A stretch of DNA of 64,000 nucleotides from positions 1 through 64,000 of the forward strand of contig JACZXZ010000001.1 in the NCBI GenBank assembly GCA_022571365.1. The letters are read 5' to 3'. Numbering within the stretch: the first letter of the stretch is position 1; every line of letters begins with the position of its first letter. Made by a program: the position numbers and the translations under genes. The notes under the pieces are model-generated. The model searched no databases. It was not told the origin of the DNA and saw only the letters and a program-made list of their open reading frames with translations. Positions 15,935 through 20,880 of this stretch are shown here, one piece after another. The stretch is from Pseudomonadota bacterium (GTDB taxonomy: Bacteria; Pseudomonadota; Alphaproteobacteria; G022571365).

Positions 15935-16345
15935 GACGGTGGTTCGGATCCGGCCCTGCGAGCGCCGCGGCACCCGCGCCGCCCGCGCCACCCCAGTGAC
16001 TTACCATTGCAAGAAGCTGTGCCATTCTCCCCCTCTCCCTAACCCCCTCTCATACCCATACCGGGGGAGGGGGAACATGAGGTGACGGGTGCTTGGCGGA
16101 AAGCCCTCCTCCCTCTTCGCGGGGGAGGGGGAACATGAGGTGCGGGTGCTTGGCGGAAAGCCCTCCTCCCTCTTCGCGGGGGAGGGTTGGGGCGGGGGGT
16201 GACTCATGAACTTATGCGAGGCCCACCCGGGCGCTGCGCCAGCACCCCCGGACCCATGACCCGCGGGTGGTCGGCACGTGCCCGCACCGCGGCGGCGGCC
16301 GGGCGCGGCCGGCGCCGGCCGCGAAACCGCCGGCCCTAGCCCGAG
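15935..16345. other. Repeat-bearing gap between UPF0262 and the phosphatase
   Basis: About 410 bases without a gene. The central part is filled by pyrimidine/purine-rich hairpin-forming repeats (listed separately), flanked by very GC-rich sequence. Confidence 0.6.
16027..16190. repeat. Intergenic repeat: two 58-bp copies of a CCTCCC/GGGAGG hairpin element
   Basis: Copies at 16074-16131 and 16132-16188 are nearly identical (one base missing in the second), with the core GCTTGGCGGAAAGCCCTCCT. Each holds CCTCCTCCCTC and CGGGGGAGGG, which can pair. A partial copy in front (16027-16073) has CTCCCCCTCTCCCTAACC and CGGGGGAGGGGG. This looks like a mobile or REP-like intergenic element type common in GC-rich proteobacteria. 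Confidence 0.8.
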
Positions 16346-18013: not shown

Positions 18014-19522
18014 TTGACTCATGAGTCCAAACCCGCTTCGGCCCCGATGATCGACGAGATCCTGTTCAGCGTCGGCCCGGGTCAAATTCGGACGGCTCTC
18101 CTGGCCGGCGGCCGGCCCTGGGAGCTCATCCTCGCCCGCTCCGGCCGGGCTAGTGTGGTCGGCAATGTCTATCTGGGCCGCGTCGTCCGGGTGTTGCCGG
18201 GGATGGACGCGGCCTTCGTCGAGATCGGGCTCGAGCGCGCCGCCTTCCTCGCTCGCGCGGAGGCGCGCCACGCCGCGGCGCTCGGGCGCGGAAACGCGGC
18301 GGCGGAGGGCGGGCAGCCGGGGCCGCGCATCGCCGACCGTGTGAGGGAGGGTGAGGCGGTGCTTGTCCAGGCGGTGAAGGACGCGATGGGCGAGAAGGGC
18401 GTGCGCGTGACCACCGCGCTAACCTTGCCCGGCCGCCATCTGGTCTACACCCCGACCCGGTCGGAGATCGCCGTCTCGCGGCGCATCGAGGACGAAGCCG
18501 AGCGGGACCGCTTGACCGGGCTGGTGGCGGAGGTGGCCCGGCCGGGGGAGGGGTTCATCCTGCGCACCGCCGCGGTCGGTGCCGGGGCTGAGGCGCTCGC
18601 CCGGGACGCCGAGTATCTCCGCGCCCTGTGGGCCGAGGTCCAGGACCGCCGCGCCGCGGCCAAGCCGCCGGCCCTGGTCCATCAGGATCTCGCGCCGGTG
18701 CCGCGGGTCCTGCGCGACCACGTGCGCGGTCATGTCCGCCGCATCCTGATCGACGACCGGGCGGCCTTGGCCGAGGCCCGGCGCTTCGCCGAGCGGTTCA
18801 TGCCCGAGGCGGCCGGGATCGAGCTCCACTCCGGCCCCACACCGCTGTTTGAACTCTACGACATCGAGAGCGAGATCGAGCGGGCCTTGAGCCCCCGGAT
18901 CGAGCTCGCCTCGGGCAGCGTCGTGGTGATCGAAAGCACGGAGGCCCTTACCGCCATCGACGTGAACACCGGCCGGCATGTGGGCCGCGGGTCGTTCGCC
19001 GAGACCATCCTCGAGACCAATCTGGAGGCGGCGGCCGAGATCGCCCGTCAGGTGCGCCTGAGGAACCTCGGCGGGCTCATCGTCATCGACTTCGTGCACA
19101 TGGACCGGCCCGACCATAGGGAGCGGGTGGTCGAGACGCTGCGGGCCGCCTTCCAGGCCGACCCGGCGCCGGTCTATTGCGGGGGCATGTCGCCCCTGGG
19201 ACTCATTGAGATGACGCGCAGGCGCAGCCGCGAGTCCCTGGACCAGATGCTCATGGAGGCGTGTCCGGCCTGCGGCGGCGGCCACGGCCGGGTCAAGTCG
19301 GCGGCGACGGTGGCCTACGAGGCGGCGGCCGCGGCCCTGAGGACCGCGGCGCGGGCGCCGGGGGCGCGGCTCACCGTGATTGCCGCCCCGGAGGTGATCG
19401 ACGCTTTCGAGGGCGAGGCCAAGGTCGCGCTCGAGGAGATGGAAGCCGCGCTCGGCCGTGGGGCGGCGCTGCGGCGCGAGCCGGGCTACGCCCGCGACCG
19501 CTATGAGGTCGTGATCGCATGA
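18014..19522 (+). CDS. rng: Ribonuclease E/G family protein
   Basis: 502 residues from TTG 18014, or 491 from ATG 18047, which begins like other RNase G proteins ([10 protein letters not shown]); I keep the longer form but the ATG is equally possible. The S1 domain contains [25 protein letters not shown] (near residues 55-80). The catalytic DNase I-like region has TAIDVNTG and [11 protein letters not shown], supplying the magnesium-binding Asp residues. The zinc-link cysteines appear as CPACGGGHG. There is no long C-terminal degradosome scaffold, so it is the short RNase G type that processes 5' ends of rRNA and mRNA. yacG overlaps its stop (ATGA). Confidence 0.93.
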
Positions 19523-19758
19523 CTTCGGGCCAGGGGAAAAGTCGCGGCGCGGCGGCTTCCGCTCGGGCGGGGAAGGGGAGGCGCTGTCCGACCTGCGGCC
19601 GGCCCGCGGCGCCTGAATTCCGGCCGTTCTGCTCCCGGCGCTGCGCGGATATCGACCTCGGCCGCTGGCTCAAAGGCATCTACCGGATACCCACGGAAGA
19701 GCAGCCCGGATCCGATGCCCCGGACGAGACGCCGGAGGAGCCGCCCGATTCGACGTGA
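19519..19758 (+). CDS. yacG: DNA gyrase inhibitor YacG
   Basis: 79 residues. Small zinc-finger protein that binds GyrB (family knowledge). Zinc ligands are in CPTCGRP and [15 protein letters not shown] (residues about 23-52). The start overlaps the RNase E/G stop by four bases, so it is translationally coupled. The acidic tail ends ...PPDST, and these last codons plus the stop are the beginning of the 18-bp tandem array that follows. Confidence 0.95.
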
Positions 19759-19927
19759 GGGCTCGATACGACGTGAAGGCCCGACGCGGGCGTGAGGGCC
19801 CGATTCGACGTGAAGGCCCGATTCGATGTGAGGGCCTGATTCGATGTGAGGGCCTGATTCGATGTGAGGGCCCGATTCGACGTGAAGGCCCGATTCGACG
19901 TGAGGGCCCGATTCGACGTGAAGGCCC
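19747..19927. repeat. Ten-copy 18-bp tandem array built from the end of yacG
   Basis: Consensus GATTCGACGTGAGGGCCC, ten head-to-tail copies with C/T variation at CGACG/CGATG and A/G variation at GAAGG/GAGGG; one copy (19783-19801) is altered and one base longer. The first copy contains the final codons of yacG (GAT TCG ACG TGA). Units are not separated by unique spacers, so it is not a CRISPR. Confidence 0.95.
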
Positions 19928-20042
19928 GGCGCGGGCGTGGGGGAGATCGGCCGCCGATCGGCAACCGGACTCAAGCGCCGCGGTGCTTCTGGACAGGTGG
20001 GTGCGTTTTTTACTATAAGCGGCTCGCACATGCGCGCCTCGG

Positions 20043-20118
20043 GCCCAGGTAGCTCAGTTGGTAGAGCAGGGGACTGAAAATCCTTGTGTCGGTGGTTCGA
20101 TTCCGCCCCTGGGCACCA
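20043..20118 (+). tRNA. tRNA-Phe (anticodon GAA)
   Basis: Full cloverleaf with acceptor stem GCCCAGG/CCTGGGC, D-arm AGCTCAGTTGGTAGAGC, anticodon loop CTGAAAA (GAA, reading TTC/TTT), T-arm GGTTCGATTCC and an encoded CCA end. 76 nt. Confidence 0.97.
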
Positions 20119-20208
20119 GCCTTTTCAATCACTCAAGCTGTCGCCGTCCTCCGGTGACTTCCCGGGGCACGCGCCCGGGCGCCAAGCCGCCATTGCCGCC
20201 GCCAGGCG

Positions 20209-20880
20209 CTAGAACTCGTCGTCGGTTTCGAGGGGCGAAAACCGAACCGGCAGGATCTCCCTCGTTTTCGCCCGGCCGTTTTCGTCCTTTTCGACCAGAA
20301 CGAGATGCTGGTTGTCGGGTATCCCGGTCGGGATGACCATTCTGCCGCCGGACTTCAGCTGTTGGAGCAACGGCGGGGGTATGAGGTCAGGCGCCGCCGT
20401 GACAATGACCTTGTCAAAGGGAGCGTGTTGGGCCCAGCCTTGGTAGCCGTCGCTGACGCGGGCTTCGATGTTCGTGTATCCCAACTGGCCCAGCCTTCCC
20501 TTGGCCTCGGCCGCGAGCTCCTCGATGATTTCGATGCTGTAGACCTCCTTCGCCAGCTCCGCGAGAATGGCCGCCTGGTAGCCAAATCCGGTCCCGATCT
20601 CAAGCACTCTGTCGTCTCCGCGCAGCTCGAGGAGATCGGTCATGAGCGCGACCATGAACGGCTGGGATATGGTCTTCCCATAGCCGATGGGAAGCGGCGT
20701 ATCGACATAGGCGTAGACCTTCAGCTCAACCGGCACAAACTCATGGCGGGGCACGCGGTCCATCACCTCCATGACCCGGTCATCCAGGGCCTTGCCGATC
20801 GTGTCCCGCACAGAGGCGGCGTGGAGCGCGATCTCTTGGACCATCGAATGGCGCCAGGCGGTGAAGTTCACTTCGTTCAT
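20209..20880 (-). CDS. pcm: Protein-L-isoaspartate O-methyltransferase
   Basis: 223 residues. SAM-dependent repair enzyme that methylates isoaspartyl residues in damaged proteins. Family motifs: YGKTISQPFMVALM near residue 70, the SAM loop VLEIGTGFGYQAAILAEL near 95, the acidic EIIEEL, and post-motif GRMVIPTGIPDNQHLVL. No signal peptide, so cytosolic, although many pcm genes sit with surE. Here it stands alone after tRNA-Phe. Start ATG at 20880. Confidence 0.93.
   Translation of the reverse strand: MNEVNFTAWRHSMVQEIALHAASVRDTIGKALDDRVMEVMDRVPRHEFVPVELKVYAYVDTPLPIGYGKTISQPFMVALMTDLLELRGDDRVLEIGTGFGYQAAILAELAKEVYSIEIIEELAAEAKGRLGQLGYTNIEARVSDGYQGWAQHAPFDKVIVTAAPDLIPPPLLQQLKSGGRMVIPTGIPDNQHLVLVEKDENGRAKTREILPVRFSPLETDDEF

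Follow-up and report, generated by a model that had tools for sequence, protein, structure and literature searches.

The question raised by this locus is how some ten copies of an 18-bp unit came to lie across the end of yacG, upstream of the tRNA-Phe gene, and whether they have any function there. Within the window, that is, the whole 64,000-nucleotide stretch of DNA analysed, the array was recovered by TRF as 10.3 copies with 86% matches and a score of 265, the highest of all TRF arrays in the window; a degenerate final unit carries it on to about position 19,940 (Table 1). Searched with a tolerance of three mismatches, a 20-base pattern of the unit gave nine matches as compared with 0.08 expected, and nine or more matches were obtained in none of 100 shuffles. 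The roughly ten-copy array described in the initial annotation is thus real and far beyond chance, and so is its position between yacG and tRNA-Phe: it starts within the last codons of the Pfam-confirmed yacG, the final codons and the stop of which sit inside array copy 1. The source genome, a draft of 2.31 Mb in which the window falls on contig 42, is about 93% complete and, judging from gene content and gene order, that of an alphaproteobacterium. Since the array was read from an assembly of 116 contigs, its copy number could have been mis-sized in assembly.

Table 1. Features of the yacG–tRNA-Phe region, in window coordinates.
Feature	Position	Strand	Basis
Ribonuclease E/G family gene, upstream, overlaps the start of yacG	18014..19522	+	Pfam PF10150, 307 bits
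yacG, DNA gyrase inhibitor YacG, 79 aa, ends ...EEPPDST*	19519..19758	+	Pfam PF03884, 55.9 bits vs 25.5 cut-off; ORF
18-bp tandem array, ~10.3 copies, consensus GCCCGATTCGACGTGAGG	19743..19928	+	TRF and pattern matches
Variant unit 3, GACGCGGGCGTGAGGGCCC, 19 bp	19783..19801	+	Unit table
Final, degenerate unit (GGCGCGGGCGTGGGGGA), related most closely to unit 3 as its sister	19928..19944	+	52-bp block identity; unit table
Small hairpin GATCGG-CCG-CCGATC, without T-run, directly 3' of the array	19945..19959	+	Fold -7.6 kcal/mol, z -1.28
Likely tRNA-Phe promoter, TGGACA-N18-TATAAG	19991..20020	+	10/12 consensus matches; similar element in many class relatives
tRNA-Phe (GAA)	20043..20118	+	ARAGORN; Rfam RF00005, 68.4 bits

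The units are not all alike, and their differences follow a pattern, as had been suggested from the start. According to the unit table, the statement that each of them carries the final yacG codons and the stop holds for units 1, 4, 8, 9, and 10, in which GATTCGACGTGA is exact, and fails for the remaining ones: unit 2 is a GATACG variant (GATACGACGTGA), units 5–7 represent the CGATG variant (GATTCGATGTGA), and units 3 and 11, the most diverged, form a separate variant (GRCGCGGGCGTGR). Units 4, 8, and 10 are identical to one another, as are units 5 and 6; in general, the edge units are degenerate and the inner ones nearly identical. The length of unit 3 places the TGA codons of the units that follow unit 2 outside the yacG frame. 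The largest pattern joins the two ends of the array, with units 1–3 (19,743–19,794) and units 9–11 (19,888–19,939) being 94% identical across 52 bp. This suggests that a whole block was duplicated, in addition to single-unit steps.

Open reading frames of 176 aa on the minus strand and 87 aa on the plus strand span the array, and a repetitive peptide might in principle be encoded by such an antisense or alternative frame. This reading is scarcely credible. Copying a stop-free unit opens its frame automatically, the minus-strand frame runs antisense to yacG, and the G+C contents at the three codon positions (0.74/0.62/0.64 and 0.77/0.63/0.57) form no clear coding pattern. A CRISPR array was likewise rejected, as the copies abut directly at 18-bp spacing and no unique spacers separate them.

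The comparison with relatives, made at the level of the class, shows how the junction is usually built. The order yacG–tRNA-Phe is common to 21 of the 29 class relatives examined, in which the gap between the two genes ranges from 35 to 188 nt, with one outlier of 647 nt and a median of 108 nt. Here the gap amounts to 284 nt; with the roughly 180 bp of the array removed it returns to the class norm, being about 100 nt, close to the median. None of the 29 relatives has a comparable array at this junction, and a two-unit pattern with up to three mismatches was absent from 384 other genomes of the class. The array occupies a single locus in its own genome, and collections of plasmids, phages, and viral contigs gave no match to it. 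Taken together, these results support the stepwise local amplification across the yacG stop that had been proposed, and the unrelated sites that would betray a mobile origin were found in none of these sets. The position of the array beside a tRNA gene is what might be expected of a mobile or selfish repeat family inserted there, yet the array precedes the tRNA, away from the 3' end of that gene, and shares codons with yacG; with no second site in the genome, in the class, or among the mobile elements searched, next to no credence is left for this explanation. REP/BIME elements and other dispersed palindromic repeats, which occur in many copies throughout a genome, were dismissed as well. When the RNase E/G protein was searched against named genomes, only distant relatives, of 34–46% identity, were returned, and a literature search found no paper combining yacG, tRNA-Phe, and alphaproteobacteria.

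What the array consists of, head-to-tail copies of one unit in the 10–100 bp range in excess of chance, the unit being private to one locus without dispersal, places it among the minisatellites. We consider it a locally born minisatellite of the VNTR type, neutral or nearly so and most likely without a specific function, and assign this reading a probability of about 0.88. An 18-bp stretch comprising the stop of yacG and the first bases of the spacer would have been duplicated first, and the array would then have grown, presumably by replication slippage or unequal recombination; the sequence indicates that this growth combined single-unit steps with one or more duplications of a block of some 52 bp. 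The expansion may have run in either direction, out of yacG or from the spacer into the gene. Loss of MutS was rejected as the cause of repeat growth, a gene with a MutS domain being present in the genome.

Such an array would be tolerated because neither YacG nor the tRNA-Phe promoter is altered by it. Since the unit contains the stop codon and its period is divisible by three, the YacG protein would be the same at any whole-unit copy number. On the other side, the tRNA-Phe gene probably has its own promoter 3' of the array, as a TGGACA/TAGACA-N16-18-TATAAN element precedes this gene in many relatives of the class as well. The predicted promoter is intact and lies about 50 bp past the last unit; it escaped the promoter scan, which accepts only a second hexamer ending in T. 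The sole effect of the array is likely to be a longer 3' untranslated spacer of yacG.

That this spacer is of consequence for the RNA, with hairpins of the GGGCCC type stalling 3' exonucleases or shaping the yacG mRNA at its 3' end, is improbable. A single unit with flanking GGCC arms can form a stem of 5–6 bp at -9 to -12 kcal/mol, whereas the fold of the whole array does not differ from that of dinucleotide shuffles (z -0.15; 86 of 200 shuffles folded equally well). The sense RNA is rich in G (79 G vs 51 C), unlike the C-rich Rho sites, and the array is not conserved in the class. No Rfam family was found in the array, the sole match above the gathering score being the tRNA. A search of positions 19,400–20,400 found no G+C-rich hairpin followed by a T-run, so an intrinsic terminator or attenuator was discarded, and the effect on mRNA end formation put forward in the initial annotation finds no support in these data. 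Some influence on the stability of the yacG mRNA may conceivably have been selected for, given the weak stems of 5–6 bp available to single units. A regulatory variant of this idea, according to which a stop-containing array with a copy number differing from cell to cell tunes the length of the yacG 3'-UTR, and thereby the expression of yacG or of RNase E/G with the protein unchanged, is very improbable.

The DNA itself could be the target, the array then being a cluster of sites for proteins or for methylation: GATTC, present in most units, is a GANTC site of the kind methylated by CcrM, and the eight GANTC sites within the array are more densely grouped than any others in the window. In the genome, however, a single N6/N4 methylase was found, and it adjoins an endonuclease of the HindIII type, which makes it resemble a part of a restriction-modification system and not CcrM. 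GcrA was not found either, an absence that is not absolute in a genome about 93% complete, and the GATTC of the founder unit would simply have been copied along with the unit. A regulatory cluster dependent on CcrM and GcrA was rejected on these grounds, and the broader reading as a site cluster is held to be highly improbable. The endonuclease (PF09518, 359.8 bits) and the adjacent methylase, which is the only PF01555 match of the genome, are located at L113:493-2403.

Intergenic VNTRs are well known. The array shares with bacterial minisatellites and the VNTR loci used in MLVA typing its short head-to-tail unit, local origin, degenerate edges, intergenic location, and a unit private to the locus; the hallmark of VNTR loci, in turn, is copy-number polymorphism, whereas the yacG array is known from one sequence. 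One such locus is MIRU-VNTR/ETR-F (VNTR3239) of Mycobacterium tuberculosis, located between rnc and fpg1, whose length correlates with the expression of the downstream gene (PMC2734929). It likewise is a tandem array of composite repeats in an intergenic gap, one that measures a few base pairs in relatives, but its units are of 55 and 79 bp, as compared with 18 bp here, and it lies upstream of the gene (PMC2734929). In metagenome-assembled genomes of lake bacterioplankton, intergenic tandem repeats have been attributed to polymerase slippage; those repeats were structural variants detected with long reads, while the yacG array is a single sequence (PMC9426551).

Tandem arrays are numerous elsewhere in this genome. 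A sample of 1.62 Mb, composed of L114–L233 and the window, contains 407 distinct TRF arrays with a score of at least 50, as compared with 20 in a first-order Markov control, and 26 arrays with at least four copies and a score of at least 100, as compared with none in the control. Their units are unrelated in sequence, and they are found in both coding and intergenic DNA. At a score of at least 50 their density reaches 251 per Mb, against 44.5–72 per Mb elsewhere in comparison sets that are small and unmatched. This genome seems to carry an unusually large number of tandem arrays, of which the one at yacG is a single example.

Several other arrays were recorded in the course of the analysis. 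A 57-bp unit is present in 2.2 copies (98% matches) at positions 16,062–16,186 of the window, about 0.8 kb upstream of an IF-1 (infA-like) gene. At L141:5972-6314, a 41-bp unit is repeated 8.4 times with 93% matches, apparently in intergenic DNA. A 15-bp array (CCCGAGATCCTGTGA x 4.8) lies at L173:11784-11855, apparently between two minus-strand genes, the translations of which, as read without a family search, resemble the large and small subunits of acetolactate synthase.

The yacG array shows an expansion across the end of a gene without a change in the protein, and could be used as a marker in typing this uncultured lineage. It is an ordinary element that matters little alone; the abundance of tandem arrays throughout the genome may have the wider significance.
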